In this document: positions 11,682 through 31,261 of the stretch, in pieces
How positions within the stretch are numbered: position 1 is the first letter of the stretch
Layout of the letters: the number at the start of each line of letters is the position of its first letter
From: Corynebacterium choanae
Lineage (GTDB): Bacteria > Actinomycetota > Actinomycetes > Mycobacteriales > Mycobacteriaceae
Direction of reading: 5' to 3'
NCBI RefSeq assembly: GCF_003813965.1
Contig: NZ_CP033896.1
Location: 186,001-250,000, forward strand
DNA: 64,000 nt
The notes under the pieces: generated by a model
The model's input: the letters and a program-made list of their open reading frames with translations, nothing else
Databases searched by the model: none
What the model was told of the DNA's origin: nothing
Translations under genes and position numbers: made by a program

Positions 11682-12305
11682 CGTGTGTATCCCCTCTAGT
11701 GGATGGAAGTTTTCGACAAAGCGTTCATGTGCACAGTGGAAGTGGCACGTGAATAGGTGTTGTGATCTTACCGGCTGGTACCTGCGGGCAGGAAAGCTGA
11801 AACGTGCATGTGGAACAGGCCGTTGGTGTCGTCGGCAAACCCGCAGTTGAAAACAGGATGAGCAACCAACGCTGCATCCCACACGTCACAGCAGTAGCGT
11901 TATGTCACTAAACTTCACTATTTTAACACGCTCCCGGTGTTGCCCTGGGCGGGTGCGTGCCTTTTTTAGCATTGCTGCGGGAAACGGCGTTGGGCCGCGC
12001 GGCGTGGAAGGAATCGCAAGTACGAACCGTCGTGTGTGCTATCTCATATAACCCCGGCGAATCGCCCGAATGCGCAGCTCACAGCTGGGTGTGGTGCTAA
12101 AGAGAATCTTTCGCTTTATTCAGTAAGTAACCATCTTTTTCTTAACTACGTCTAAAGGGGGACGTGAGCTTGTCGTTCCACTAATGGGGACGCACAGGAC
12201 TTGCGGGAAGCAGTAACTGTGCGCTGGGCACGGTTACATTGTCACTGCGCTGCCGTCATGGAGCATATGAGATTGGCAGCGCGAAAGAACTCCTAGGAGA
12301 TTTTC
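11682..12305. other. Divergent intergenic region
   Basis: These 624 bases separate the MmpL gene from a small secreted-protein gene on the other strand, so both promoters should lie here. An AT-rich run at about 12110-12160 is the best promoter candidate for the plus-strand gene. I see no RNA gene; the open frames inside look like noise. Confidence 0.5.
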
Positions 12306-16346: not shown

Positions 16347-17684
16347 ATGAACACGCTTAGCACCAAACGACTGGTGAGCCTGCTGTCAGTGGCTGCACTG
16401 TCCACTGTGGGCCTGGCCGCCTGCGGCTCAGACGACACGGCAAAGGATGCAGTAGATACTGCCTCAAGCACCGTGTCGAGCGCTGCCAGCGAAGCCGCTC
16501 CTAGTGGGGATGCTGTCGCCATCGAGTATTGGCACCGTCTGCCGGACAAGGATGGCATGATCAAGGTTGCTGAGGCTGCCGACGAATTCAATGCCGCAAA
16601 CCCGGATATTCAGGTCAAGACGGTGAAGTTCGAAGGTGACGCCACCGCCAGCTATGACAAGATTTCGGCGGCGATCAAGGCAGGTAACGCCCCATGTTTG
16701 GCACAGGCCTCCTATGATGGCCTGCCCGCCATGCTTATGCGCGGTGAACTCATGGATGTCACCGATCTTGCCAAGGAGTACCAAGATCACTACGGTGCCG
16801 GCCCGTGGGGTCAAGTCACCTTGGGTGGCAAAACCTATGGTCTGCCGCAGGACACCGGCCCGCTGGTCTACTACTACGACAAGGATGCCTTCGACGAGCT
16901 GGGGATCACCGCCCCAACCACCTGGGACGAATACTGGTCGAATGCTGAAAAGGCACAGGCTGCCGGCAAGTACACCTCCGCCTTCTTCAAGGATGAAGCC
17001 GGTGACTGGTATGCCGCATTAAACGCCGCCTACGGCGCACAATGGTTCGACATCGACGGTGACGCGTGGGCAGTTGACGTCAACGGACCTACCTCGCAAA
17101 AGGTGGCCGATGCGTGGCAAACCTCCATCAACTCCGGCACTACCCTGGTTGCTGATCGGTGGGGCGACCCGGCACCAACCGACACGGCACTGAAAGAAGG
17201 CACCCTCATCGGCTATATCGGTGCCGCTTGGGAAGCTGCTTTCAACCTTGATCCGCTAGGAAAAGAAGAGGCAAACTGGCAGGTAGCCCAAATGCCGGAA
17301 CAGCAGTCCGGTCCATGGGGCGGCTCTGCACTCGTTGTCTTGAAGGGCTGCGAAGCACCAGAGGCCGCACTGAAATTCGCCGACTGGTACAACACCAACC
17401 TCAAGGCCATGGCCAGCCAGGGGCTCGTGCCGGCTGCCAAGGGCAAGGTGGAAACCCCAGAGGCCATTAAGAAGCTCTATGGCGGACAAGATGTCATGGC
17501 TGAGCTGACAAAGGCTGCTGACAATGCCAACCCGCGCTGGCTGTACAGCCCAACTTGGCCAACGGTGAAAGAAACCCTCATCGACAATGCGGGCAGCGGT
17601 ATGCCGCTGCAGGCCAACATTGACGCGGCGCAAGCTGAGGCGATCACCTCACTGGAAGGTGCCGGCCTGCAGGTGAAGAAGTAG
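16347..17684 (+). CDS. Sugar ABC transporter substrate-binding lipoprotein
   Basis: Family 1 extracellular solute-binding protein, 445 aa, anchored outside the membrane by a lipidated Cys (lipobox GLAACG, Cys about 26). An Ala/Ser-rich linker precedes the two-lobed domain, which opens with VAIEYWHRLPDKDG. YGLPQDTGPLVYYYDKDAF and the Trp-rich C-terminal lobe are typical of oligosaccharide binders. I chose the ATG at 16347 because it opens a proper signal peptide; AGGAAGG lies about 14 bases ahead. Two permeases and a GH42 beta-galactosidase follow, suggesting a galactoside or galactosyl-HexNAc ligand. A maltose-type ligand cannot be excluded from sequence. Confidence 0.9.
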   Translation: MNTLSTKRLVSLLSVAALSTVGLAACGSDDTAKDAVDTASSTVSSAASEAAPSGDAVAIEYWHRLPDKDGMIKVAEAADEFNAANPDIQVKTVKFEGDATASYDKISAAIKAGNAPCLAQASYDGLPAMLMRGELMDVTDLAKEYQDHYGAGPWGQVTLGGKTYGLPQDTGPLVYYYDKDAFDELGITAPTTWDEYWSNAEKAQAAGKYTSAFFKDEAGDWYAALNAAYGAQWFDIDGDAWAVDVNGPTSQKVADAWQTSINSGTTLVADRWGDPAPTDTALKEGTLIGYIGAAWEAAFNLDPLGKEEANWQVAQMPEQQSGPWGGSALVVLKGCEAPEAALKFADWYNTNLKAMASQGLVPAAKGKVETPEAIKKLYGGQDVMAELTKAADNANPRWLYSPTWPTVKETLIDNAGSGMPLQANIDAAQAEAITSLEGAGLQVKK

Positions 17685-17731
17685 ACCCACAACCTCTCGC
17701 ACCGCGCACTGCGCAGGGGATAGCCCCGAAC

Positions 17732-17766
17732 CCGGGCAGGATCAGCGCCCTGTTGATCCTGCCCGG
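17732..17766 (+). other. Strong intercistronic hairpin between binding protein and permease
   Basis: CCGGGCAGGATCA and TGATCCTGCCCGG are perfect 13-base arms with a 9-base loop. There is no T-run, so it is more likely an mRNA-stabilising or partial-attenuation element that keeps binding protein in excess of permease. Confidence 0.6.
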
Positions 17767-17979
17767 TAGCACCCCACCCGCAAAAGCTGCACATCTGAGA
17801 TATACAAAACAACACAGCAAGGGCGTTGTTGTCACCACCCACCGCGAAGTATCCCTATCCTTCCTCACCGGTGCCACGCCCCGCAGTCAACAACACCACC
17901 ATCCGCACCACACACTCAACGACTGCACCACAGCACACACACGGATTTTTCCCAACGCAGGAGGGAAGGACTTTTCGTC

Positions 17980-18942
17980 GTGACCACCCCCACCACCGCA
18001 CCACCCGCCCGGTCAAACGAGGCCTACATTCGTGCCCGCGCCCGGCGACGTGCCATGTACGGCTGGATTTTCCTCGCGCCGTTCGCTTTCTTATTCCTCA
18101 TCGTTTTTATCGTCCCGATTTTCGTCTCCGCATACGAGGCCTTCTTCCAAATGAAAGTCTCCGGCGGCGGCGCTTACGGCGGCGGCGAACTCAGCCGCCA
18201 ATTCGTCGGATTAGAAAACTTCCGCAATGCGGTCACCGCACCCAACTTTTGGCGCGGCATGGGGCGAGTGTTCCTCTTCGGGATCGTACAAATCCCGATC
18301 ATGATCCTCATCGCCCTCGTCTTAGCGCTCGTACTTGATTCGGTCGCCGCCCGGCATCAAAAGCTGTACCGGCTGCTGTACTTCCTGCCCTACGCCATCC
18401 CCGGCATCATCGCCGCCATCATCTGGATCTATCTCTACACACCAGATGTGTCACCGATCTTCCAACTCTTCGGTATCAGCCCCAACCTGTTTGACCACAA
18501 TGTGGTGTTGTGGTCGATGGCCAATGTCACCACCTGGACATACACCGGCTACAACATGCTGATCTTCTACTCTGCCCTGCAGTCCGTGCCCACGGAACTC
18601 TACGAGGCTGCCCGCATCGACGGCGCCAGCGAATGGCAGCTCAACACGAAAATCAAAATCCCCATGCTGTCCTCGGCAGTCCTGCTGACCGTCCTGCTGT
18701 CGATCATCGGCACCATTCAGCTATTTAACGAACCAGCCATGTTCCAAAAAGTCGCTGCCCTGCCATCGGACTACATGCCAATGCTCATGGCGCTCGCGAT
18801 TAAGAACAACCAAGTCACAGTCGGCGGTGTATCCGGTGCCGGCCCTGCTGCCGCAGTATCCCTCGTGATGGCCATCATCGCCGGTGTTCTGGCGCTGCTC
18901 TACGCGCTTATTCAACGGAAGGTGGCACCAAGCAATGACTAG
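17980..18942 (+). CDS. Sugar ABC transporter permease, MalF/UgpA type
   Basis: Inner-membrane permease of 320 aa with six main hydrophobic segments after a basic N-terminus. The cytoplasmic EAA loop that contacts the ATPase reads YEAARIDGASEWQLNTKIKIP near residues 208-228. The GTG start at 17980 has a strong GGAGGGAAGG Shine-Dalgarno. It overlaps the next permease gene by eight bases, so the two subunits are translationally coupled. It should form a heterodimer with the following protein and use an MsmK-type ATPase; the nearest one is encoded at 26073-27200 on the other strand. Confidence 0.93.
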   Translation: MTTPTTAPPARSNEAYIRARARRRAMYGWIFLAPFAFLFLIVFIVPIFVSAYEAFFQMKVSGGGAYGGGELSRQFVGLENFRNAVTAPNFWRGMGRVFLFGIVQIPIMILIALVLALVLDSVAARHQKLYRLLYFLPYAIPGIIAAIIWIYLYTPDVSPIFQLFGISPNLFDHNVVLWSMANVTTWTYTGYNMLIFYSALQSVPTELYEAARIDGASEWQLNTKIKIPMLSSAVLLTVLLSIIGTIQLFNEPAMFQKVAALPSDYMPMLMALAIKNNQVTVGGVSGAGPAAAVSLVMAIIAGVLALLYALIQRKVAPSND

Positions 18943-19879
18943 GGAAAACACGGCAACCCTGCCCGACGGGCGCACCTATACGCCATCGAAAGGCAATGTG
19001 CCCCAGTCGCTCAAACCGAAACCACTCACCACAGTCATCATCCGGGCTGCCCTGCTTATCGTGGCAATCTACTTTATGCTGCCGGTGTATTGGCTACTGA
19101 TATCTGCGACAAAATCCGATAACGGGCTCACCGAATCCAACGGTTTCTGGTTCGCCCCCCAAACCGCGAACGGCCGCAACATTGGTGGCTTCCACCTGGT
19201 GGAAAACTATCAAGGGCTGATGGCCTATTCCGCCTCCCACGGCCACTATTGGCGGTGGGTCGGCAACTCAGTGCTGTACTCGGTATCCGCCGGGGTTATT
19301 GGGGTACTGGTATCAGTGATGGCCGGCTATGCGTTGAGCAAATTTAAATTCCGCGGCTCAGCTCTCGTCCAAGGCTGCATCATGGCCGGCCTGCTCATGC
19401 CGGTCGCGCTGCTCAGCGTGCCGCTGTATCTACTGTTCAGCGAATTTGGTCTGTTGAACAATCCGCTGGCTGTCATCATCCCCTCTGCAGTGTCCCCCTT
19501 CGGCGTGTTCCTTGCCCGGGTGTATGTGGAAGCCTCCGTGCCCGACGAGCTCTTAGAAGCAGCCCGCATCGACGGTGCCGGCGAATTCCGCATATTCTTC
19601 ACCATGGTGCTGCGCCTACTCGCCCCCGCTATGGTGACCATTTTCCTCTTCATTTTCGTCGCCACCTGGAACAACTTCCTGCTGCCGTTGATCATGATGA
19701 CCGACGAATCACAAAAACCAGTCACCGTCGCCCTCTACGGAATGCTGGCCTACTTCGACCCGGACAAGGGACAAGTACTCCTCGGGGCACTGATGGCTAT
19801 CGCCCCGGTCGTAGTATTGTTCACCTTCCTGCAACGATTCTGGCAGTCCGGGTTGGCTGCCGGCTCAGTGAAGGGATAG
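18935..19879 (+). CDS. Sugar ABC transporter permease, MalG/UgpE type
   Basis: Second permease subunit, 314 aa, with six hydrophobic segments. The EAA loop LEAARIDGAGEFRIFFTMVL is near residues 208-227. The ATG at 18935 lies within the end of the preceding gene, with GGAAGG about ten bases upstream. Initiation at an upstream open codon would overlap the first permease by far more and would add a Cys/Arg-rich stretch, so I reject it. An inverted repeat follows the stop codon. Confidence 0.93.
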   Translation: MTRENTATLPDGRTYTPSKGNVPQSLKPKPLTTVIIRAALLIVAIYFMLPVYWLLISATKSDNGLTESNGFWFAPQTANGRNIGGFHLVENYQGLMAYSASHGHYWRWVGNSVLYSVSAGVIGVLVSVMAGYALSKFKFRGSALVQGCIMAGLLMPVALLSVPLYLLFSEFGLLNNPLAVIIPSAVSPFGVFLARVYVEASVPDELLEAARIDGAGEFRIFFTMVLRLLAPAMVTIFLFIFVATWNNFLLPLIMMTDESQKPVTVALYGMLAYFDPDKGQVLLGALMAIAPVVVLFTFLQRFWQSGLAAGSVKG

Positions 19880-19893
19880 CCACACCTGCGGCC

Positions 19894-19939
19894 AGTCGCC
19901 GGCACCCGACAGTGACCTGCCGGGATCCCGCCGGCGACT
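19894..19939 (+). other. Hairpin after the permease genes
   Basis: AGTCGCCGGC pairs with GCCGGCGACT. No T-run follows, so it may dampen rather than stop transcription into the GH42 gene. Confidence 0.45.
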
Positions 19940-20055
19940 AGACCCTGGTCAGCAGAGTTGCTCGTCCCGCTTGGCGGCGCAATCCCCCTCCCGGGAACCC
20001 CGGATCACTGTATGGTGTTCACTGAAAAATCGACACCCCGCAAAGGTAACCATCA

Positions 20056-22281
20056 ATGGCTTTCTTCCATCCTGACCAAACCGTATTCTACGGTGGGGAC
20101 TACAACCCGGAACAATGGGATGATCCGGCAGTGTTAGCTGAAGACATTCGCCTCATGCAGGAGGCGAAAGTCAACTTGGTGACCCTTGGGGTGTTCGCTT
20201 GGGCGAAACTTGAACCCAGCCCCGGCCAGTATGAGATGCAGTGGCTCATCGACATTCTTGACCGGCTTCACGCTGCCGGAATCGCCGTCGATATGGCTAC
20301 CGCCACCGCCTCCCCGCCGGCGTGGCTGGCACACAAATTCCCCGATTCGCTACCTGTTGACGCCCAAGGGCGACGTCTAAAATTCGGATCCCGTCAACAA
20401 TATTGTCCCACCTCCCCGGCATATGCGAACCGTGCCCGAGCGCTCGTGGAACGGCTCGTCAGTGCCGTTGGTGAACATCCAGCCATTGTCATGTGGCATG
20501 TCAACAATGAATATGGCTGCCATGTGCATGAATGTTTCTGTCGGCGCTGCGCGGAAACATTCCAGCAATGGCTAGACGTCAAATACGACAACGATATTGA
20601 TGCGTTAAACCAAACCTGGGGCACCGCATTTTGGTCGCAAACCTATTCCTCCTTCGACGAGATCCAACCCCCACATTTACTGCCTACCTTCGCCAACCCG
20701 GTGCAGGTGGTCGACTGGCGCCGCTTCTCTGACCATATGCTGCGGCTACTCTGCGCCCAAGAGTGTCTCGTGCTGCGGGAACAACTCTTTGAACCCCCAG
20801 TTATCACCACCAACTTCATGGGGCTGTTCCCCCATCTGGACTATTGGCTCTGGTCTGCAATGGTGGGGGTGGTCTCTGACGACTCCTATCCTGACCCGGC
20901 CAGTAGCGCTGCCGCAGCCCAGATCGCATTCGACAGCGACCTGATGCGCAGTCTCAAACAGCAGCCTTTCATCCTGATGGAACAAGCCCCTTCAGCGGTG
21001 CAGTGGCGCAGCGTCAACGCCCCGAAACCGCTCGGGGTGAACATGCTGTGGTCTATGCAGCGGATCGCACACGGTGCCGATGGGATTATGCACTTTCAAT
21101 GGCGGCAATCGATTCGTGGGGCAGAAACCTTCCATTCGGCGATGCTGCCCCACGGCGGCACCAACACCCGTGTGTGGAAAGAAACCGTCGCCCTTGGTGC
21201 GGCTTTAGAAGAGCTTCCCGTTGTTCATGGCCGTATGCCGAAAGTATGCACCGCATTGCTGTTTTCGTGGGAAAGTGAATGGATTCGACAGTCCTGTGTC
21301 GGTCCGGTCGAACACGAATTCGGCAGTGCTGCCCGCAAATGGCATCGCACCCTCTTTGAGGCTGGCTACACCAGTGATTTCGTCAACCCGGATACGGTAA
21401 CCGTCGACGAGCTGCGCCGCTATCTGCTTGTTGTAGTGCCAGAGCTATTCGCTATGGATCAGCGGCTCGCCGACACACTCCAGCAGGCCGCCGAAGCAGG
21501 TGTACAAATCATTATCGCCGGCCCATCCGGGGTAGTGGACAACAACGGGAAAGCACACAATGAACGCGACGGTTATCCATTGGCGTCACTCACCGGGGTG
21601 AAAGTCAACGAACCCTGGCCGACCTGTCTTAATGAACATGGAACAGCCCGCATTGTGGATAGCCCCTACGAGGCGCCCAATAGTCTCACCGACCGGATCA
21701 CCGGCGGTAGTGACCTGATAGGTCCGCCGCTCGGCATTCACATTGAACTTCATCATCAACCCTTAAAAGAAGCCACCCTCGTCGACATTGGGCAAGACCC
21801 GGCCAGCGACAGCCGCTACGGCGGCACCACCTGGGCGGAATCCCTCAGCATTGACGCCGATGTCGAAGTATGGGCACGCTACGGGTATCAAGGGGTACTT
21901 GCCGGTGAACTCGGCGGACTCCCTGCCATCGTGCATCGCATCCACGGCGCCGGTGGCGTGACCTATGTCAGTTTCGACGCGAACGCCTGCTTTAGGGATG
22001 GGCTTTGCACCATGCTGCTCGACGCACAGCCTGGGGTGCGGGATGTGGAACAGGCCAAAGGGGTGGAACGGGTACGCCGCGGCAATGTCGAATTCCTCCT
22101 CAACCACGGTCGTGACCCGGTCTATATGGAGCTCATGTCTAGTGGTGCCCAAGCCGGCGCGCAGAAAGCTGTCGTCCCCCCGGTGAGCGCAGCCACCATC
22201 CATCTCAGCGCGGACGCAACCCCCATCATCACCACCTACCGGCACTTCGTCGATGATTCGTTCAACACGGAACGATTCTAG
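20056..22281 (+). CDS. GH42 beta-galactosidase
   Basis: Cytoplasmic glycosidase of 741 aa that cleaves terminal beta-galactose. The TIM barrel opens with YGGDYNPEQW. The acid/base Glu is E152 in HVNNEYG. The nucleophile is probably E309 in ILMEQAPSAVQWR. C117, C160, C162 and C165 match the zinc-binding cysteine set of many GH42 enzymes. The central trimerisation domain and C-terminal beta domain follow, so the length is normal. No signal peptide is present. AAAGG precedes the ATG by eight bases. It lies downstream of the sugar permeases and in the same region as a GH112 phosphorylase, so the likely substrates are imported galactosides, possibly of host origin. Confidence 0.93.
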   Translation: MAFFHPDQTVFYGGDYNPEQWDDPAVLAEDIRLMQEAKVNLVTLGVFAWAKLEPSPGQYEMQWLIDILDRLHAAGIAVDMATATASPPAWLAHKFPDSLPVDAQGRRLKFGSRQQYCPTSPAYANRARALVERLVSAVGEHPAIVMWHVNNEYGCHVHECFCRRCAETFQQWLDVKYDNDIDALNQTWGTAFWSQTYSSFDEIQPPHLLPTFANPVQVVDWRRFSDHMLRLLCAQECLVLREQLFEPPVITTNFMGLFPHLDYWLWSAMVGVVSDDSYPDPASSAAAAQIAFDSDLMRSLKQQPFILMEQAPSAVQWRSVNAPKPLGVNMLWSMQRIAHGADGIMHFQWRQSIRGAETFHSAMLPHGGTNTRVWKETVALGAALEELPVVHGRMPKVCTALLFSWESEWIRQSCVGPVEHEFGSAARKWHRTLFEAGYTSDFVNPDTVTVDELRRYLLVVVPELFAMDQRLADTLQQAAEAGVQIIIAGPSGVVDNNGKAHNERDGYPLASLTGVKVNEPWPTCLNEHGTARIVDSPYEAPNSLTDRITGGSDLIGPPLGIHIELHHQPLKEATLVDIGQDPASDSRYGGTTWAESLSIDADVEVWARYGYQGVLAGELGGLPAIVHRIHGAGGVTYVSFDANACFRDGLCTMLLDAQPGVRDVEQAKGVERVRRGNVEFLLNHGRDPVYMELMSSGAQAGAQKAVVPPVSAATIHLSADATPIITTYRHFVDDSFNTERF

Positions 22282-22380
22282 ACATCAGCAAAGCTGCGCA
22301 ACCACCGCAAAAACAACCCATCGACCACTCCTGCAGCGGCATAGCCGCAGCTAGTCCTGTGTGGCTTGCTGCGGGGTGCG

Positions 22381-23646
22381 TTACCGTGCCGGTGGTGGGG
22401 GCAGCAGGCGGGCAATCAGTGGGCCATATTGCACAGCAAACATGGCTAAAGTCACCAGCAGCGGCAGCAGCGACATCGGATCGGAAGAATTCGCCTGCCG
22501 TGAAGCACCGCTGAGATCATTGGTGACAACACCATTACCGCCAGTGGTGCCGGGGCGGGGATCATATTTCGGATTCCTCCCAATGTCGCCGGTGGGATCC
22601 GCGGTAAACGGTGTCACCGAATACTGCACACTATCGCCCCCGCCAAGGTCGATAGCAACCTGATACGCCGACTCGGCGTAGCTGGAACCATACCGGAAGG
22701 GGGCCTCAAAAATCAGGGTGCTGGCCGCATACGCCGACCGAGTCGCTGTTCGGTGGATCACCGTGCCGTCTGCACCGGTAATAGTTACCGGGAATGCTTT
22801 CCCGGCCGGCAAATTCGGCACATATATGCTCCAGGTGCGGAAATTTAGCAATTCCTGCGGGAAATATCCGGCTGCAGGCCACGCCACAATCTGGCCAGCA
22901 TCATCTTGCTGATACACCCCGTTGCTTAACGTGTGTGCGGCAAGAAACGAATAATACGTCCCGTCGCTGCTCGGTGCCGAGGCCAGCCCATAGGCAGTCG
23001 CTGCAAGCCGCGGACTCAGCAGCTGCACCCGATGACCCGGATCAGGCAAATCGTCATCCGCAATTTTCACCTGCAGCAGCTGCGGCAAATTATTGGCATC
23101 ACTCGCCGACGTAGAAAGCGTCGATGTTGACACCCCGCGGATCGCCTCGTCGGTGGCGCACAACCAGCTGCTATCCGGGGAATGGGTGAGCCTAAGTTCG
23201 CGGCCGCCACTGTGCAGATAGTCCACTGCATGCATCACCGCACCGGCCTGCTCGGCACGCCAAATCGAATCGGAGGAATCAATCAGGGTCACCGGGGAAG
23301 TGTGATTAAACGCCCGATAGGCGTTGTGGAGCGCCAACAGATTGCGAATAGTTGCCGCATCAAGCCGTTGTGGTTGCGGACATCCGGAGTCGGTGATCTC
23401 CTGGCCACGAGCCGGGTTACGGGTCATCACCGCCCGATACAATCCTGCCGCCTGCGCGCGACTATTCGTGGGAACCTGTCGATTGCCGGTGAGCTGCCCA
23501 AGCGGCACAGATTCCCGCGCCGGCCCCACCGGCACAATACCTTCTTCGGCAACCGCACCTGGCACAGCAATCGGCGCGGAACTCAGTGCTAGCGACATGA
23601 TTGCAGCCACTACTACCCGTGGGGTTCGACGGATAAAGCGAGACAC
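22381..23646 (-). CDS. Surface protein with CAP/SCP-like domain and C-terminal anchor
   Basis: A 421-aa exported protein. With the GTG at 23646 (GGTGG upstream) it opens on a good signal peptide ending near residue 36 (AVA|EE). The domain at about 90-235 has ALHNAYRAFNHTSPV and GHRVQLLSPRLAATAYG, reminiscent of CAP/SCP proteins (Hx...NxxR, GHR...LxP). A beta-sandwich-like region, a Gly/Thr/Asn linker, a transmembrane helix and the tail LLPPPPAR follow. The frame is open 49 codons further upstream, but that extension lacks a ribosome site and would bury the signal peptide. A wall or adhesion role is possible; enzymatic activity is not shown. Confidence 0.75.
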   Translation of the reverse strand: MSRFIRRTPRVVVAAIMSLALSSAPIAVPGAVAEEGIVPVGPARESVPLGQLTGNRQVPTNSRAQAAGLYRAVMTRNPARGQEITDSGCPQPQRLDAATIRNLLALHNAYRAFNHTSPVTLIDSSDSIWRAEQAGAVMHAVDYLHSGGRELRLTHSPDSSWLCATDEAIRGVSTSTLSTSASDANNLPQLLQVKIADDDLPDPGHRVQLLSPRLAATAYGLASAPSSDGTYYSFLAAHTLSNGVYQQDDAGQIVAWPAAGYFPQELLNFRTWSIYVPNLPAGKAFPVTITGADGTVIHRTATRSAYAASTLIFEAPFRYGSSYAESAYQVAIDLGGGDSVQYSVTPFTADPTGDIGRNPKYDPRPGTTGGNGVVTNDLSGASRQANSSDPMSLLPLLVTLAMFAVQYGPLIARLLPPPPAR

Positions 23647-23795
23647 AGTTCCACCACTTTCGCAAGACAATTTCGTCGACCGCACACAATCGACATCCCG
23701 ACTAGTCGCACTCACAATAGCAAAACAGAATGCCCCCTTTAGGTCGGCCAAGCCTCTCCGGGCAGCGACTGCCAGCAACTGGGGCTGGTGCACCG

Positions 23796-25013
23796 TCAGC
23801 TTTCGTGGTCGCTAATCGTGGCTTTATGCTCCCGCTGCTGTAACACATGGGTCACATAGGAGCGAACCGCCGTATCGATGCCCACATCCTCACCGGCAGC
23901 CTCCGAGATATACCAGCGATGCTCCAAAATCTCGTGGTAGAGCTGTGCTTCCTGATATTGGCGGCGGAATTTCTCCGGCACCAGCTCCAGGGTGGGGCGA
24001 AACGCTTCCAAAATCCACAGCCGGGCAACCGCCTGATTCAACTCGTCGCCCAACCCTTGCACGGATGCAAAGGTGCGCATATCGTCGATGAGCCGTTTCG
24101 CTTGTGCCTCCTGCACATCCAATCCGGTGAGATGCTTCACCTGTCGCTGATTATGGCCAGCATCCACCACCTTTGGACGCACCACAAACGCCTCATTGCC
24201 CGCATCGTGCACCATCGACATCTCCCCAATGTCGAAACCTAGCTCGGCTAGCCGATCAATCCGAGCAGTGAGCTTCCATCGCTGATCCAAGCCGATGGTC
24301 TCTTCACCGGTAAGTTCCTCCCACAGTTGTTCGTAGGATTCCACTACGGCACAGCCAATTTCGATGACATCTATCTCCGGATCCAGCAATCCGCCTGCCT
24401 GCAGATCCATCAATTCGCCAATAATATTGACCCGCGCCAGCTCTAGATCGTGGCTGCGCTGCCCGGCGGTGAGCTCATCGTGCAGCTCGCCGGTTTCCGC
24501 ATCGACCAGATAGGCTGCGAAACCGTCGGCGTCTTTCCGAAATAGGGTGTTCGACAGCGACACATCTCCCCAAAAGAATCCCAGCAAATGAAGGCGCACC
24601 AGCAGCACCGCTAGCGCATCGATAAGACGATCCGCCATTGAAGGATCAATATCTTCGGCAAATAGTGCCCGGTAGGGCAGCGAAAATGGGAGATGCTTAG
24701 TGATCAGGCATGATAATAAAGGCTCCCCGCCGGGGGTGGTGCGGCCAGTGACCACCGCATAGGGACTCACCATAGGCGGGCCGAGTTTGCCCAAGCGAAC
24801 CAGCATGTCGTATTCCCGCCAGGCGATCTTCTCCGGGGTTTCTTTAATTGCCACCACCTGGTCGCCAACATTGACAAATCGCACCGTGTGTCGGGAAATA
24901 CCACGCGGCAATGCTGCTAATAGCCGCACAGGCCATTTCTCTAGGGGACGATCCCAGGGAAGATTCATCAACTGCGGGTCAGGGGAGGCAGCATTAATCG
25001 ACAGCGGAGCCAT
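23796..25013 (-). CDS. DUF4032 protein with protein-kinase-like N-terminal half
   Basis: A 405-aa cytosolic protein. The N-terminal half resembles lipopolysaccharide-kinase/RIO-like folds: VVAIKETPEKIAWREYDML could carry the ATP-binding Lys and helix-C Glu, HLLGFFWGDVSLSNTLF the catalytic loop (D replaces the usual HGD pattern, N retained), and YLVDAETGEL the metal-binding Asp. The DUF4032 C-terminal half follows. The start is uncertain: ATG at 25013 has GGAGAG about 14 bases ahead, while ATG at 25037 adds eight residues without a ribosome site. Its substrate is unknown. It is not obviously part of the sugar pathway although it lies inside that cluster. Confidence 0.78.
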   Translation of the reverse strand: MAPLSINAASPDPQLMNLPWDRPLEKWPVRLLAALPRGISRHTVRFVNVGDQVVAIKETPEKIAWREYDMLVRLGKLGPPMVSPYAVVTGRTTPGGEPLLSCLITKHLPFSLPYRALFAEDIDPSMADRLIDALAVLLVRLHLLGFFWGDVSLSNTLFRKDADGFAAYLVDAETGELHDELTAGQRSHDLELARVNIIGELMDLQAGGLLDPEIDVIEIGCAVVESYEQLWEELTGEETIGLDQRWKLTARIDRLAELGFDIGEMSMVHDAGNEAFVVRPKVVDAGHNQRQVKHLTGLDVQEAQAKRLIDDMRTFASVQGLGDELNQAVARLWILEAFRPTLELVPEKFRRQYQEAQLYHEILEHRWYISEAAGEDVGIDTAVRSYVTHVLQQREHKATISDHES

Positions 25014-25184
25014 AGCTTCTGTTGTACTCTCCAACATTGGCTGGGCGCATCTTGCTACCCCTGTCCGCGCCGACAACACCCACAGACACAGCAGTTCCTT
25101 AACTCCGCAGTTGGATGTGAAACTTCACAATCTTGGTGAGGTGCCGGTGAAGAACCTGCCGCTGCGACGCTTACAAAGCGGGAC

Positions 25185-25229
25185 GAAAAAACGCTGTGGT
25201 TGACAACGGGACGTCGTCGACCACAGCGT
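25185..25229 (-). terminator. Rho-independent terminator of small secreted gene
   Basis: On the minus strand ACGCTGTGGT pairs with ACCACAGCGT, extended by GAC/GTC with one mismatch, and is followed by six T residues. It lies 44 bases after the stop of the gene at 25273. Confidence 0.85.
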
Positions 25230-25272
25230 ACTATCTTGCGTTTCGCGCCACGGGGGCGCAGACGCTCAATGC

Positions 25273-25860
25273 TTAGCGGGGAACTGGAATATTCAGCTGA
25301 GCCGCCAGCGCAGGGTTGGAGATCACCGCGCCAGCCAGCCCTGCGAGCAGGGCAATGATGACGACAGCGCCGACAAGCCCCTGGTTGTCGGAGGAACCAT
25401 TGTCGGTCTTATTGCCATTGGTGTCAGTGTTGAACCCTGGCAGGGAGGAACCATTGGTGTCCTTGGAAGAACCCAGTGCTTCAGAGACGGTCGGTTCGAG
25501 AACCTTGCACTCAATGAGGCGGGTTTTTAAGTTGTCATTGCCACGATCGGCGATCGTTTCAAGTTCCGCCTTGAGCTCTGGGCTGAAGATTGCGGCTGCA
25601 AACTTGTTGGTCACCAAATTCATGTCGGTTTCCCGCTGCTCGCGGAGACGTTCCCGGATTTCATCTTGTGACTTGTTGCCATAGATGTTTTTCAAGTTGG
25701 AGCATTTCTCATCGGCTTTTTTGTCAGCGATGGAGGTAGCGAATTCGATGATTTTCTTCTCTGCGAAGCCCCACTCTTTTGCCTGTGCCGGCATGGTGGT
25801 AGCGGTAAACATGAGGCTGGCACATACAGCACCAGTGAGGACTCGTTTGAAAGTTTGCAT
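25273..25860 (-). CDS. Small secreted protein with C-terminal membrane anchor (paralogue 2)
   Basis: About 195 aa, built like the protein at 12306-12845: signal peptide ending near AQA|KEW, a charged helical domain of about 95 residues with two cysteines (DEKCSNL near its start, IECKVL near its end), a Ser/Asn/Gly/Thr linker, a transmembrane helix and the tail NPALAAQLNIPVPR. Sequence identity of the domains is low, but domain order, cysteine spacing and tail match. The ATG at 25860 is preferred; a GTG three codons earlier is possible, and neither has a strong ribosome site. Function is unknown; surface display is inferred. Confidence 0.82.
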   Translation of the reverse strand: MQTFKRVLTGAVCASLMFTATTMPAQAKEWGFAEKKIIEFATSIADKKADEKCSNLKNIYGNKSQDEIRERLREQRETDMNLVTNKFAAAIFSPELKAELETIADRGNDNLKTRLIECKVLEPTVSEALGSSKDTNGSSLPGFNTDTNGNKTDNGSSDNQGLVGAVVIIALLAGLAGAVISNPALAAQLNIPVPR

Positions 25861-25998
25861 AGCAGCCACTGTATAACGAATTGACTAAATACGAAAGGAG
25901 TTCGACAGTTTTCTGTCCTACGGGGGGCTGCACACATGGTGCTGTTGTGTCGGATAGTCCCCGGAGTGCTTCTCACGCAGCGAGCAGAAAACGACGGA

Positions 25999-26043
25999 AG
26001 CCACCTTTCGCCTTGCTGCGGGACGCTGAGGCGGAAGGTGGCT
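25999..26043 (-). terminator. Terminator of the MsmK-type ATPase gene
   Basis: AGCCACCTTTCGCC pairs with GGCGGAAGGTGGCT with one mismatch. On the minus strand it is followed within a few bases by TCGTTTTC. It starts 30 bases past the ATPase stop codon. Confidence 0.8.
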
Positions 26044-26072
26044 GTAACCGAGTGAATAAAAGCGAGGCCGGT

Positions 26073-27200
26073 TTATGCGGGCAGGCGGCGGCCAGTTGCA
26101 GCAGAGAATTGATGCTGCTGGTCGGGGCGGATCCGTACGTGAATGGTGGCGCCGCGACCAGGGGCGGTTCGTGGAGGAACACGCACAATGATCTGGTTGC
26201 TGGTCTCTTCACTACCCGAACCGAGTGACACATCGGAAGCACCCGCCAAGGTGCCGTAGATGTATGCGTCAGAGCCGAGCTCTTCAACCAGGTCGATGGT
26301 TACCGGAATGGAAACGCCATCTTCTTCGCTGACCACGTCACAGGCTTCTGGGCGGAAGCCGATAACCACCTTGCCGTTGTCTTCTGGGGTCAGCGCTGCC
26401 ACTGTGGCCGGGCTGAGTTCCACCCGGGCAGGGCCTAGCACTGCATGATTGCCTTCAACCGCGAAGGTGCCGATATTCATCGCCGGGGAACCGATAAAGC
26501 CGGCAACGAACACGTTCGCTGGTGCTTCATACATCTCCCGCGGGGTGCCGACCTGCTGCAGAATGCCATCTTTCAGCACCGCAATACGGTCACCCATGGT
26601 GAGCGCTTCCGTCTGGTCGTGGGTCACATACACGGTGGTGACACCCAGTTTGCGCTGCAAGGAAGCGATCTGGGTGCGGGTTTGCACACGCAGTTTCGCA
26701 TCCAAGTTCGACAGCGGCTCGTCCATAAGGAATACCTGCGGTTTCCGCACAATGGCGCGCCCCATTGCCACACGCTGACGCTGACCACCGGAGAGTGCCT
26801 TCGGTTTGCGGTCAAGATACGGGGTGAGATCCAGGATTTGGGCGGCTTCTTCCACCCGCTGATTAATCTCATCCTTCGGGGTGCCGGCGATTTTCAGAGC
26901 AAACCCCATGTTCTCCCGAACCGTCATATGCGGATAGAGCGCATAGTTTTGGAAGACCATAGCAATGTCGCGGTCTTTCGGCTGCACGTCGGTGACGTCC
27001 CGGTCGCCGATTAAGATACGGCCCGAGTTGACGTCTTCCAAACCGGCGAGCATACGCAGCGATGTGGACTTACCGCAGCCGGACGGGCCGACCAGAACAA
27101 GGAATTCGCCGTCGGCGATGTGCAGATCGAGTTCGTCGACGGAAGGATGATCGGCACCGGGATAGATCCTGGTTGCCTTATCAAAAGTTACTGTTGCCAT
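26073..27200 (-). CDS. Sugar ABC transporter ATPase, MsmK/UgpC type
   Basis: A 375-aa ATPase that powers CUT1 carbohydrate importers. Walker [10 protein letters not shown] is at about residues 38-46, Q-loop in [10 protein letters not shown] near 85, signature LSGGQRQR near 136, Walker [13 protein letters not shown] near 156-167, and the switch His in VTHDQ near 193. The C-terminal OB/TOBE regulatory domain ([12 protein letters not shown] onward) is complete, followed by a few extra residues. The ATG has GGAGG seven bases upstream. It is the only CUT1 ATPase in the window, so it most likely serves the permeases at 17980-19879 and possibly other importers elsewhere. Confidence 0.93.
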
Positions 27201-28035
27201 GGTGTTCCTCCACCGGCAGGTACGTGCCGGACGATCCGAGTGGAGTGTTTAGTGTGTGGGGCTTGCGCAATCGGCGGGTTTTGGTGAAACGGCCGACGCC
27301 AAAAGCCGTCCCTGACAAGAAACACTATGTGAATAGGTATGTGACTCCAGTCACCTTCAGGGCGACTGGGCGCACTGCGTTACATTGTTCCATATCTGAC
27401 AGGTGCGAAGTTGTGATATCGCCCAATCGGGGGGTGGGTGTTGGGGGATGAAGCAAACATCGTTCCCTTGCCCGATCCGCAATACGGCGAACCTGGTTCT
27501 ACAACGCCACTCCTGCTCAATCTTTCCTGGCGGTGGCACTAGCGCCGAGTATTGAAAGTGTGTAATAACACTAGAGAAAACGCTAAAATCCGCTGCTCCA
27601 GGGGGACGTTACGGGATAGGGCGATAAGCTGGCATAGGCTGTAGAAGGACCCGATCGGCAACTGACCGCGGCTGCGCGTGAGTGCACCGGGCGGGTGAAC
27701 ACACCCCGGGGAAGCGTCGAAACACAGTGCAATACCTTTTCACATCCGTTTGCCCTGTGAGATTTCAGACAATCCAGAAGTTGTCAGACGATCGTTGGAT
27801 CAGTCGGCTTCTGCACCTGCTGCAAGCCTGCTCGATAGCGCCCTGCTGGGCTGCAGTGAGTCGTGGGAATTGCACCGATTCGACTTATGATACGAAGTGA
27901 TCAGTCCGCAATTCAGTGCTCTCGAAACGGATGACACAAGCCCCAGGATGCCCGCATTTCGCACCGGGATGAGTCGGTGCCGGGAGCTGTCCAACCTGCC
28001 GATGATCGTATGCAAGCTTGGAATGGAGGGAACCT
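27201..28035. other. Divergent intergenic region of about 830 bases
   Basis: It separates the ATPase gene (minus) from the DeoR-type gene (plus). The small open frames have no features of real genes. Promoters for both genes should be here. Composition is mixed and no structured RNA was recognised. Confidence 0.5.
27341..27354. promoter_or_regulatory. Operator-like inverted repeat before the ATPase gene
   Basis: GTGACT-CC-AGTCAC is a perfect inverted repeat 141 bases before the ATPase start codon. It could be a regulator site; its sequence differs from the repeats at 16252 and 28923. Confidence 0.35.
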
Positions 28036-28839
28036 ATGAATCGTCAACTGCGCCTCACCCGTCTGCTTGAACTCGTCACCGCGCAAGGCTTTGTCACCAT
28101 CGACGATTTGGTCGACTCGCTGGAAGTGTCGGCGGCAACCGCACGGCGCGATGTGGAATATTTAGCGAATCAGCAGCTACTGACTCGCACCCGTGGTGGG
28201 GCGATGGCGAACGCCACCTCCGGGGAGATTCCGCTGGGAATGAAAGCGACGAAACGTTCCCGGGAGAAAAAAGCGATCGCAGCTGCTGTTGCCGCACAGG
28301 TGAAACCCGGTCAGGTCATTGCCTTAAATGGCGGCACCACAGCCACCGCCTGCGCATATGAGATCGGCATTGCTACCGCGGCGGAGGAAGCCTTCACCCG
28401 CACTCCGCTGACAGTGGTGACAAATGCGGTCAATATTGCCAACGACTTGGTGGTGCGACCGGGGGTTCGGCTGGTGGTGATCGGCGGAGTGGCGCGTGCC
28501 CAATCCTATGAGCTGATCGGTCCGCTCGCGGAACCAATGCTGCGCAACATCGACATTGACACGTTCTATATCGGGGCTGATGCGGTCGACCCGCAGCGGG
28601 GACTCTACACCCACAATGATGGGGAAGCAGCAATTAATTCCCGGCTGGTGCAAGCAGCCCGCCACACCGTTGCCATCACCGACTCGTCGAAGTTTACGAC
28701 CAGTGCGTTCGCCCATATTTGCAATATCAGTCATCTGGCGGCGCTGATCACCGACAACGGAATTAGCGACGAGCAGTTGGCGGCGCTGCAGGAACGCACC
28801 GAAGTGCTGCTCGTCGACCCAGCAGCCAACAACAGCTAG
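28036..28839 (+). CDS. DeoR/GlpR-family transcriptional regulator
   Basis: A 267-aa repressor-type protein. The N-terminal winged HTH is at about residues 4-58, with VTIDDLVDSLEVSAATARRD as the recognition region and TRTRGGA as the wing. The C-terminal DeoR sensor domain (ISOCOT fold) has IALNGGTTATACA and FYIGADAVDPQRGLYT, which normally bind a phosphorylated sugar. The ATG at 28036 has ATGGAGGGAA seven bases ahead; the open codons upstream are not needed. It is placed between the MsmK-type ATPase and GH112, so a galactose- or hexosamine-phosphate signal is likely. It probably controls the glycan genes. Confidence 0.9.
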   Translation: MNRQLRLTRLLELVTAQGFVTIDDLVDSLEVSAATARRDVEYLANQQLLTRTRGGAMANATSGEIPLGMKATKRSREKKAIAAAVAAQVKPGQVIALNGGTTATACAYEIGIATAAEEAFTRTPLTVVTNAVNIANDLVVRPGVRLVVIGGVARAQSYELIGPLAEPMLRNIDIDTFYIGADAVDPQRGLYTHNDGEAAINSRLVQAARHTVAITDSSKFTTSAFAHICNISHLAALITDNGISDEQLAALQERTEVLLVDPAANNS

Positions 28840-28922
28840 CCCCGTCCTATGAGGCTGCGTTGCAGCACACGACTTCGAATCACCCCAGAGTTTTCGTTTT
28901 TGCGTGAAACTTCCCACTTTGC

Positions 28923-28934
28923 GCACTAAAGTGC
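28923..28934. promoter_or_regulatory. Short palindrome between deoR-type gene and GH112 gene
   Basis: GCACT-AA-AGTGC is a perfect inverted repeat in the 181-base gap. It is a candidate operator. Confidence 0.35.
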
Positions 28935-28947
28935 AGATTATTGGTGG

Positions 28948-28972
28948 GTTTTCCTGATTATTCAGGGAAAAC
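28948..28972. promoter_or_regulatory. AT-rich inverted repeat before the GH112 gene
   Basis: GTTTTCCTGA and TCAGGGAAAAC are nearly perfect 10-11 base arms around TTAT, 49 bases before the GH112 start. The CTGATT/AATCAG core also occurs in the repeat at 16252-16270. It is a candidate site for the adjacent DeoR-type regulator. Confidence 0.45.
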
Positions 28973-29020
28973 GCCAACACCACACCAGGAACCGCTGCAT
29001 CTCTCTAGGGGCCTTCGACC

Positions 29021-31261
29021 ATGTCGCAATTTCCGGCGAACAGACTCACTCTTCCGGTTCAACACGGCATCGATGACATACTGCACAAAATCACCGACCG
29101 ACTGCACGCTGATGCGTGGCGCAACAGCGACGGCACCGAGCTCCCCGGGGAAGCGCACAGCGCCGACGTGGCGATCTACGCCACCTACTTTCCGGCGCGC
29201 GGCGACCAAGCCCATGCCCTAGCCCATCCGGAAGAAACCACCCGGATTTATCTCATGAGTCACCCGGTGACTGCGTTTGCATCCACCCTCACCATTGACA
29301 TTATGGACGGCTATTTTGCGCAGCAGATAGCCCCCGACATCACCTGTGATCTGCGGCGCTACTGGCAGGTAATTGATCGCACCACCGGGGAGACAATCAC
29401 CCCCGACGCTTGGCAAGTCACTAGTGTGCCACGCACCGATGCACATGATTTTCCAGATGACGATCCCCGCAGCCAACAGGTGACCGTCACCATCAGCGAC
29501 ACGCAGCCCACCCACGAATACACGGTGAACTTTCTTGCCTGGCAGTTGTGGGATTCCACCCAAATGTACAACTACATCACCAACGGCTGGCATCGTGATC
29601 CGACCCGGGAAAAGGAACGCCCCTACGACACCCGCTATCCGGCAACCCACATTCATCAGCGGGAACAGCTCGACCAGTGGCTGCGGGATAACCCGCACGT
29701 TGACGTGGTGCGGTTTACCACCTTCTTCTATCACTTCACCCTGGTTTTCGACGAAACAGGCAAGCAACGCTACGTCGACTGGTTCGGCTACACCACCACC
29801 GTGTCGCCGGCCGCACTGGAGGCTTTTGCTGCCGAATATGGTTATGAACTCGTGCCGGAAGATTTCATCGACGGCGGCTACTACAACAGTCCTTTTCGGC
29901 CGCCAAGGAAACGCTATCGGGATTGGATGGAGTTCACTGGCCGGTTTGTGTGCGACCGGATCGCGGAACTCACCGACATTGTGCATCAGCATGGCCGCAC
30001 CGCGATGATGTTCTTAGGTGATAACTGGATCGGCACCGAACCATATGGGCCGAACTTTGCCAACTGCGGGATTGATGCGGTGGTCGGTTCGGTCGGTTCG
30101 GCAGCAACCTGCCGCATGATCAGCGACATTGAGCATGTGTCGTTGACCGAAGGGCGGTTTCTGCCCTATTTCTTCCCCGACGTGTTCAACCCCGATGGTG
30201 ATCCAGTAGGGGAGGCGTGGACGTCGTGGCGGCAGGCGCGCCGGGCGATTATGCGGCATCCACTTGATCGGATGGGATACGGCGGATATTTAGATTTGGC
30301 GCTGAAAACCCCTGGTTTTGTGGAGGTGATGGAGGAGATCGTCACCGAATTTCGGGCGATTGCTGATGCTGGCACGGCTGAAGATCCGGCAACTACCGGG
30401 GTGACAGTGGCGGTGATCAATGCGTGGGGCAAGCTCCGCTCTTGGCAAACCCACATGGTGGCGCATGCTTTGCCGTACACCTTCACCGACGGCTATGTCG
30501 GTGTGCTGGAAGCTCTTGCCGGACTGCCGGTTGATGTGCGCTTTATCAGCTTCGACGAGGTCATCGAGTCGCAAGGGGCTGTGCTTGCCGATGTTGATGT
30601 GTTGATCAATGTTGGTGCCGCCGGGGAGGCGTTTAGCGGCGGTCCGGCGTGGGATGATCCTGTGCTTTGTGAACTGATTCGCCGATTTGTGGCTGCCGGC
30701 GGGGGGATTGTTGGTGTTGGTGAACCCACAGCCACCACCGGCTATGCGGATCGTTGTTTTGCTTTGTGTGACGTGTTTGGGGTGGATAAGGAACGCGGAT
30801 TTTCCCTGTCCACTGATCGGCATTGGGAGTGTGTGCCTCCTGCGGCCACACTGGGCGTTGATGTGTCGCTCCTCGGTGAGCTACCAGATCATGGATCAAT
30901 GATTGTGCCGGTGCGTGACAGCGTGGAATTGCTTGCGGTCGGCGACAACCGGGTGCTGTGTGCATCCCACCGCTATGGGCAAGGGCAGGCCTGGTATGTG
31001 CACAGTTTGCCCTATAGTCCTGGCCGTGCCCGGCTGCTGCTCGGCGTGCTCCACGCAGCAGCAGGTCGTCCACTGGGTGGGTGCGACTTGCCGCTGGCGG
31101 CCGATCCGGCAGTGGATGTTGCCGTCTATCCTGCCCAGCAGCGCATGCTGGTGGCGAACTCAACTGATCAGCCAGTAACCACGACGATTACCGGGGTTGG
31201 GGAGTCGCTGACATTGCCAGCACATGGCTCCCGGTGGCTGCCCTACCCGGCGGGGAAGTAG
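29021..31261 (+). CDS. GH112 galacto-N-biose/lacto-N-biose phosphorylase
   Basis: Cytosolic enzyme of 746 aa that cleaves beta-1,3-galactosyl-N-acetylhexosamines with phosphate, giving galactose 1-phosphate and free HexNAc. Family landmarks are VAIYATYFPARGDQ near the N-terminus, the TIM-barrel segment FLGDNWIGTEPYG (D334 is the expected general acid), a Gly-rich C-terminal amidotransferase-like domain (GGGIVGVGEPTA) and a terminal beta domain. No signal peptide is present, so substrate must be imported. The ATG has a weak TAGGGG about ten bases upstream. The enzyme is well known from bifidobacteria feeding on mucin and milk glycans. I do not see lnpB-D type partner genes (HexNAc kinase, GalT, GalE) in the window. 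Confidence 0.93.
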   Translation: MSQFPANRLTLPVQHGIDDILHKITDRLHADAWRNSDGTELPGEAHSADVAIYATYFPARGDQAHALAHPEETTRIYLMSHPVTAFASTLTIDIMDGYFAQQIAPDITCDLRRYWQVIDRTTGETITPDAWQVTSVPRTDAHDFPDDDPRSQQVTVTISDTQPTHEYTVNFLAWQLWDSTQMYNYITNGWHRDPTREKERPYDTRYPATHIHQREQLDQWLRDNPHVDVVRFTTFFYHFTLVFDETGKQRYVDWFGYTTTVSPAALEAFAAEYGYELVPEDFIDGGYYNSPFRPPRKRYRDWMEFTGRFVCDRIAELTDIVHQHGRTAMMFLGDNWIGTEPYGPNFANCGIDAVVGSVGSAATCRMISDIEHVSLTEGRFLPYFFPDVFNPDGDPVGEAWTSWRQARRAIMRHPLDRMGYGGYLDLALKTPGFVEVMEEIVTEFRAIADAGTAEDPATTGVTVAVINAWGKLRSWQTHMVAHALPYTFTDGYVGVLEALAGLPVDVRFISFDEVIESQGAVLADVDVLINVGAAGEAFSGGPAWDDPVLCELIRRFVAAGGGIVGVGEPTATTGYADRCFALCDVFGVDKERGFSLSTDRHWECVPPAATLGVDVSLLGELPDHGSMIVPVRDSVELLAVGDNRVLCASHRYGQGQAWYVHSLPYSPGRARLLLGVLHAAAGRPLGGCDLPLAADPAVDVAVYPAQQRMLVANSTDQPVTTTITGVGESLTLPAHGSRWLPYPAGK

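Follow-up and report, generated by a model that had tools for sequence, protein, structure and literature searches.

A putative split-locus pathway for galactosyl-beta1,3-N-acetylhexosamine disaccharides in Corynebacterium choanae

Introduction

Which sugar is taken up by an importer that is encoded beside a GH112 phosphorylase in Corynebacterium, a genus that to our knowledge is not usually regarded as a mucin consumer? The question arises from 64,000 nucleotides of the Corynebacterium choanae genome (contig NZ_CP033896.1, positions 186,001 to 250,000; the whole stretch is hereafter called the window), in which a CUT1-type ATP-binding cassette (ABC) importer, a GH42 beta-galactosidase, an MsmK-type ATPase, a DeoR-family regulator and a GH112 phosphorylase lie within 15 kb. 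Using Pfam and NCBIfam we found all of these genes where an original prediction had placed them, from the start of the binding protein at 16347 to the end of the GH112 gene at 31261. We consider it likely that they belong to a split-locus pathway for disaccharides of galactose beta1,3-linked to an N-acetylhexosamine (HexNAc), most likely the mucin core 1 disaccharide galacto-N-biose (GNB) in first place and lacto-N-biose (LNB) in second.

In the proposed pathway the disaccharide would be captured by a lipoprotein binder and imported by two permeases together with the ATPase MsiK. Phosphorolysis by cytoplasmic GH112 would yield alpha-galactose-1-phosphate, which would enter glycolysis via GalT and GalE (Leloir pathway), and free N-acetylgalactosamine (GalNAc) or N-acetylglucosamine (GlcNAc). 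GalNAc would be phosphorylated, probably by a ROK kinase encoded next to rho, and subsequently deacetylated by NagA. A SIS protein would then carry out deamination and isomerisation to tagatose-6-phosphate, which would be phosphorylated by a PfkB kinase and cleaved by a class II aldolase. A branch for GlcNAc may run through a ROK kinase encoded beside nagB, followed by NagA and NagB. The GH112 locus would probably be repressed by DeoR, and the distant nagA-containing cluster, referred to here as aga-like, by a LacI protein. We read the whole as uptake of the bifidobacterial kind that leads into an Aga-like ending, that is, the GalNAc-6-phosphate/tagatose-6-phosphate route. The sequence shows the genes themselves, the families they belong to, where they lie and how they are linked in relatives; the substrates, the order of the steps and the regulation are predicted from the sequence.

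The phosphorylase and the sugar importer

The GH112 gene (29021..31261, plus strand) scored 814.2 bits against the galactosyl-N-acetylhexosamine phosphorylase model TIGR02336 (cut-off 560.3), although this model may also accept rhamnose enzymes. All three LBP domains were found above their cut-offs, namely PF09508 with 574 bits, LBP_M (PF17385) with 215.7 and LBP_C (PF17386) with 28.8. At E<=0.001 the solved relatives were confined to two structures of the Bifidobacterium longum lacto-N-biose phosphorylase, 3wfz (6.5e-188) and 2zus (8.5e-187). In the alignment to these relatives Asp334 of the window protein falls on B. longum Asp313, which we take to be the general acid. Phosphorolysis of GNB or LNB is predicted on these grounds.

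The solute-binding protein (16347..17684, plus strand; PF01547 89.6 bits) carries by eye a lipobox-like N-terminus (...STVGLAACGSD) and is of the GNB/LNB-binder (GL-BP) type. In phmmer searches its best solved relatives were the GNB/LNB binder 2z8d (4e-82, 279.5 bits) and 7vfq (1.4e-78, 267.8 bits), and the next distinct family followed only with 6h0h (8.4e-30, 107.1 bits), so that GL-BP/GltA is the closest among solved binders. 7VFQ is a B. infantis binder with lacto-N-tetraose, and the affinity of GL-BP for GNB is given as 8.5-fold above that for LNB (PMC12345172, as far as the available text goes). The ligand of the window binder is accordingly predicted to be GNB/LNB. The original prediction had named a grouping with maltose/trehalose binders, together with a lack of response to galactosyl-HexNAc, as an outcome that would speak against it; a maltose/trehalose importer was rejected on account of the solved relatives. 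A relative of the binder (E<=1e-20) occurs in only 2 of 242 Corynebacterium genomes.

Two CUT1-type permease genes follow on the plus strand (17980..18942, PF00528 57.0 bits; 18929..19879, PF00528 65.5 bits) and overlap by 14 bases. The ATPase gene lies on the minus strand (26073..27200) and scored 470 bits against NF008653 (cut-off 432). We named it MsiK because an msiK RNA element (RF01747; 27199..27255, minus strand, 51.3 bits against a gathering threshold of 33) precedes the gene. With this RNA ahead of a UgpC/MsmK-type ATPase, both marks of a shared ATPase are present, and its family suggests that MsiK is probably common to several importers.

Distribution in Corynebacterium

GH112 was found above the family cut-off in 2 of 242 Corynebacterium genomes. 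At E<=0.001 the number rises to 7, the remaining five being short matches under the cut-off. The relative of the binder mentioned above occurs in the identical two genomes and at the same locus. A widespread corynebacterial GH112 gene was therefore rejected, and the expectation that GH112 would not be common to all corynebacteria held, with the importer present in both carriers. When 397 genomes were sampled evenly across the order, GH112 was detected in one, C. choanae itself; the second carrier (G112) evidently lay outside the draw.

In G112 the genes come in the same order as in the window: a trmB-like gene (so called by eye), then those for the binder, the permeases, GH42, DUF4032, MsiK and GH112, and finally a methyltransferase and a glycosyltransferase. 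Identities between the two genomes reach 82% for the binder, 86% and 89% for the permeases and 86% for MsiK, and are 67% for DUF4032, 55% for GH112 and 46% for GH42. The locus was probably already present in the common ancestor of the two, and GH112 and GH42 may since then have evolved faster or have been replaced. The two binders also pair in a binder tree (30 rows; 100/100).

A second importer is encoded in G112 (L109:4408-10648). Its binder is 37% identical to that of C. choanae and it adjoins genes for a ROK-family protein and a sulfatase, which suggests a role in the uptake of sulfated glycan fragments.

Downstream genes elsewhere in the genome

The original prediction had noted that a HexNAc kinase and GalT/GalE are missing from the window and had advised a search of the remaining genome. 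In line with this, the genome matches to galT (a single one, at C1:1765322), nagA (a single one) and ROK (four) all lie outside the window, NahK-type (APH) kinases and further galK or galE copies not having been searched for, and the search recovered candidates for the downstream steps. galT is adjacent to galK and to a gene for an SSS symporter; SSS symporters clustered with galK or galKT have been predicted to be galactose transporters in the accessible part of PMC5583593. galE is located at L138:11933-12961 (stretch C1:1683800-1703700; TIGR01179 375.7 against 262.3 bits), and nagB adjoins a ROK kinase gene.

At about 1.14 Mb, following a gene read as thrB, we found the aga-like cluster with nagA (L106:9704-11125), a class II aldolase, a PfkB kinase and a SIS protein (L106:13503-14576) together with a LacI regulator. 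The SIS, PfkB and aldolase genes are thus about 0.9 Mb away from GH112. A second ROK kinase gene (L120:820-1833) lies near this cluster, between genes read as acyl-CoA ligase and rho, and the corresponding kinase of G112 has the same neighbours. Identities to the G112 proteins are 66% for NagA, 72% for the aldolase, 47% for PfkB, 73% for SIS and 49% for ROK. NagA is a HexNAc-6-phosphate deacetylase by TIGR00221 (240.1 against 225.65 bits) and the aldolase a class II ketose-bisphosphate aldolase by TIGR00167 (219.7 against 215.6 bits), and the PfkB kinase reached 169.9 bits on the hexose kinase subfamily TIGR03168 (cut-off 216.4). The earlier suggestion that the pathway may differ from the bifidobacterial one is supported by this gene content.

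The gene set argues for GalNAc rather than GlcNAc, because glucosamine-6-phosphate is already covered by NagB in the same genome. By analogy with the known Aga route, fructose-6-phosphate would call for no dedicated PfkB kinase or class II aldolase, whereas tagatose-6-phosphate would need both.

Near the aga-like cluster of G112 (L108:16645-18057, L122:3154-7639) we observed genes for a phosphotransferase system (PTS) ascorbate-type IIC component, for a sugar transporter and for another sulfatase, the second in this genome; none of the three was seen beside the cluster of C. choanae. A LacI regulator related to that of C. choanae is also encoded there.

Linkage in related GH112 loci

Genes that lie apart in C. 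choanae can be followed in relatives. We compared the best 80 of 289 confirmed GH112 stretches from named genomes. Among the 80, 55 are counted as actinobacterial, 54 on the strength of their titles and 1 that is unlabelled; the remaining 25 are others. Relatives were counted within the fetched flanks with bit-score thresholds of our own, and as the flanks are short in several loci all counts are lower bounds. In the 55 actinobacterial loci we found relatives of SIS in at least 19, ROK in 20, PfkB in 17, aldolase in 18 and DeoR in 20, as well as of the binder in 28 and of the two permeases in 27 and 28. Roughly one in three of the fetched related loci hence has SIS, PfkB, aldolase and ROK relatives close to GH112. 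The 25 other loci contained no relatives of SIS, ROK, DeoR or the binder in their flanks, three of PfkB and one each of aldolase and nagB. In the 19 SIS-positive loci, ROK (18), PfkB (16), aldolase (16), DeoR (15) and binder (15) relatives were frequent, and GH42 was found in 5.

In a quick GH112 tree (81 rows) the proteins of C. choanae and G112 group together (SH-aLRT 99) and sit beside a seven-row clade (86) to which Schaalia canis and Gleimia belong and in which a SIS relative is present in every locus. Within the genus, 13 of 242 genomes carry a SIS relative, both GH112 carriers included; by arithmetic the chance of this is about 0.003, uncorrected for kinship. In the SIS tree the Corynebacterium proteins (12 of 31 rows) form a single clade (100/100).

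These counts bear on an alternative in which the module imports type 1 fragments, LNB among them. The HexNAc would then be GlcNAc and would pass through the ROK kinase encoded next to nagB and through NagA and NagB, while the aga-like cluster would be unlinked to GH112 and serve free GalNAc or galactosamine from another uptake system. The presence of nagB with its adjoining ROK kinase would fit this scheme, as would the 11 of 13 SIS-bearing Corynebacterium genomes in which GH112 does not exceed the cut-off and the PTS IIC gene beside the G112 cluster. However, a SIS relative lies in the GH112 flank in 19 of 55 loci, 18 of which also contain ROK, whereas a nagB relative was found in only one of the 55. 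We regard this alternative as unlikely, though not negligible.

A second alternative concerns GH42 (20056..22281, plus strand; PF02449 465.5 bits), which directly follows the permeases and shares their strand; to reach GH112 one has to pass three other genes and MsiK. As galK is present in the genome, GH42 might be the main degrader by hydrolysis to galactose, followed by GalK, with an importer for longer beta-galactosides and GH112, 7 kb away, in a minor or separate role. We judge this to be very improbable, since GH112 and the binder occur together in 15 of the 19 SIS-positive loci compared to 5 of 19 for GH42 and since the distributions of GH112 and the binder in the genus are identical. 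A GH42 relative after the same importer was seen in 6 of 55 actinobacterial loci. By eye no signal peptide was seen in the window GH42, which could possibly act as a parallel hydrolytic enzyme. Finally, a GH112 of other specificity, e.g. for galactosyl-beta1,4-rhamnose in a module for plant pectin, can hardly be upheld: galactosyl-rhamnose phosphorylases do belong to the family (PMC8950772, as far as seen), but the match to TIGR02336 described above, the GNB/LNB type of the binder and the linkage of the relatives to SIS, ROK, PfkB and aldolase genes speak against it.

Several observations weigh against our preferred GNB/GalNAc pathway. On the level of the single enzymes, the SIS protein reached only 31.1 bits on the AgaS model TIGR02815 (cut-off 529.2), the PfkB kinase 51.5 bits on LacC (TIGR01231; 409.55) and the aldolase 207.4 bits on the tagatose-specific TIGR01858 (443.55). 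The ROK kinase matched no model above cut-off; among solved structures it is closest to glucokinases. The solved relatives of NagA are named GlcNAc-6-phosphate deacetylases, neither resemblance being decisive for the substrate. On the level of gene order, the window locus is broken up by three other genes, a nagA relative was found in none of the fetched flanks of the 55 actinobacterial loci and a SIS relative was not seen in those of 36. The G112 locus contains no DeoR relative at the corresponding place, no operator common to the loci was found, and the join in the GH112 tree was flagged with a long-branch warning. Furthermore, 11 Corynebacterium genomes harbour a SIS relative without GH112 above the cut-off, so the aga-like cluster should have another use too, and a TAG stop lies within 4 of the 13 SIS matches.

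The solved relatives of the SIS protein are weak. They are led by 3fj1, which is a putative phosphosugar isomerase (64.8 bits), and 7kqa, a chain named FecR (59.0), followed by another putative isomerase and glucosamine-6-phosphate deaminases (8eol, 1j5x) and then by GlmS. As the protein does not match AgaS and its best NCBIfam model is of the GlmS type, well under the cut-off, the deaminase/isomerase step would be a non-orthologous replacement.

Near GH112 in 8 of the 55 actinobacterial loci (L011, L018, L030, L038, L039, L040, L046, L072) a GHMP kinase (galactokinase-like) and a nucleotidyltransferase are encoded next to each other, which possibly represents an alternative sugar activation. 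No galT of the own type turned up in the fetched flanks of any of these 55 loci.

Origin of the disaccharide

GH101 enzymes release GNB from mucin. GH101 was detected in four of eight genomes searched (Trueperella pyogenes, Schaalia suimastitidis, Winkia neuii and Schaalia canis) and was not found in C. choanae, G112, Cutibacterium avidum and Actinomyces urogenitalis. Sorted by the type of GH112 locus, it was present in 4 of 4 genomes tested with a SIS relative and in 0 of 2 without. Of 10 genomes searched for GH20, 7 gave a match, G112 included; none was found in C. choanae. For GH129 there were no matches in eight genomes, but as the controls likewise remained without match this negative carries no weight. 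Since neither GH101 nor GH20 was found in its genome, C. choanae is probably a scavenger of disaccharide released by others. The original interpretation is otherwise supported, but its idea of feeding on host surface glycans goes too far in this respect.

Regulation

The DeoR-family regulator (28033..28839, plus strand; PF00455 and PF08220) is nearest to the AgaR model among NCBIfam families, with 173.3 bits under a cut-off of 260. Between this gene and GH112 lies an imperfect palindrome without assigned strand, TTTTCCTGATTATTCAGGGAAA (28949..28970), which we put forward as a lead for an operator ahead of GH112. It is the sole site in the window at <=3 mismatches, but as the pattern was derived from the same site this is no test. 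Related sites (<=7 mismatches) were found neither in the G112 locus nor in L106, L120 or L108, and a DeoR operator common to the window locus and the aga-like cluster was rejected for this reason.

Relation to known systems

The bifidobacterial lnp pathway consists of the importer GltABC, LnpA (GH112), NahK, LnpC and LnpD (PMC6109692, in the text available). The putative C. choanae pathway resembles it in the type of binder and in the predicted phosphorolysis to galactose-1-phosphate. In contrast, galT and galE of C. choanae are located outside the cluster (a second galE not having been searched for), and ROK, SIS, PfkB and aldolase genes accompany GH112 in a third of the fetched related loci, no galT of the own type having been found in any of the 55. 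The gnb operon of Lactobacillus casei encodes a PTS, the GH35 enzyme GnbG, the deaminase/isomerase GnbE and the deacetylase GnbF (same source and extent) and is similar in its GalNAc ending with deacetylase and deaminase/isomerase. However, ABC import and phosphorolysis would here replace PTS and phospho-galactosidase, and therefore a separate GalNAc kinase would be needed; besides, the SIS protein stays well under the AgaS cut-off.

In a reconstruction from gut genomes, LnbABC-LnbP is counted within the pathways for GalNAc, GlcNAc and galactose, and GalNAc pathways with AgaA/AgaS are reported for Actinobacteria, Firmicutes and Proteobacteria of the gut (PMC5583593, in the portion available). 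As GNB/LNB import and phosphorolysis are already placed upstream of these pathways there, joining them to a GalNAc ending is not a new idea. AgaS serves as signature gene in that study, whereas the SIS proteins described here stay far under the threshold of the AgaS model, so that such a reconstruction may have missed them. No Corynebacterium GH112 was seen in the portion of PMC5583593 available. GnpA of Cutibacterium acnes is listed as GH112 in a table of PMC8950772, as far as seen, and is likewise a GH112 from a host-associated actinobacterium. The related C. avidum locus (L049) differs in that no relatives of SIS, ROK, PfkB, aldolase or the own-type binder were found in its fetched flanks.

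In the parts of the open-access literature that were searched we found neither this SIS variant nor a corynebacterial example of the module described. We tentatively describe a variant shared by Actinomycetaceae and two Corynebacterium species, in which ABC import of core 1 and phosphorolysis are combined with a ROK GalNAc kinase and a non-AgaS SIS galactosamine-6-phosphate deaminase/isomerase; in Corynebacterium it would be split over several loci, lack the GH101 seen in all four Actinomycetaceae of the joined type that were searched, and serve a consumer of others' mucin scraps. For this wider claim we see the case as evenly balanced. If true, a core 1 O-glycan feeding route would be added to Corynebacterium and two enzyme functions would be predicted, namely GalNAc phosphorylation by a ROK kinase and deamination of galactosamine-6-phosphate by a protein other than AgaS. 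Annotators could then recognise GNB use in many Actinomycetaceae, and cross-feeding from GH101 carriers to such corynebacteria would become testable.

Neighbouring genes

Three minus-strand genes between GH42 and MsiK (22381-25869) seem unrelated to the module, and because they intervene the 15 kb do not form a single operon. The first (22381-23793) encodes a protein of 470 amino acids that by eye may carry a signal sequence and that has no Pfam or NCBIfam family, the second (23796-25079) belongs to DUF4032 and the third (25273-25869) matches no family in either database. In three loci of Actinomycetaceae (L005, L007, L015) genes for DUF4032 and MsiK are found no more than 11 kb from GH112, as in the window, which may be due to chance or to an ancient arrangement. 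Upstream of the module, an MMPL-family transporter gene is located at 8976-11882 of the window (minus strand), and its G112 counterpart is 76% identical.

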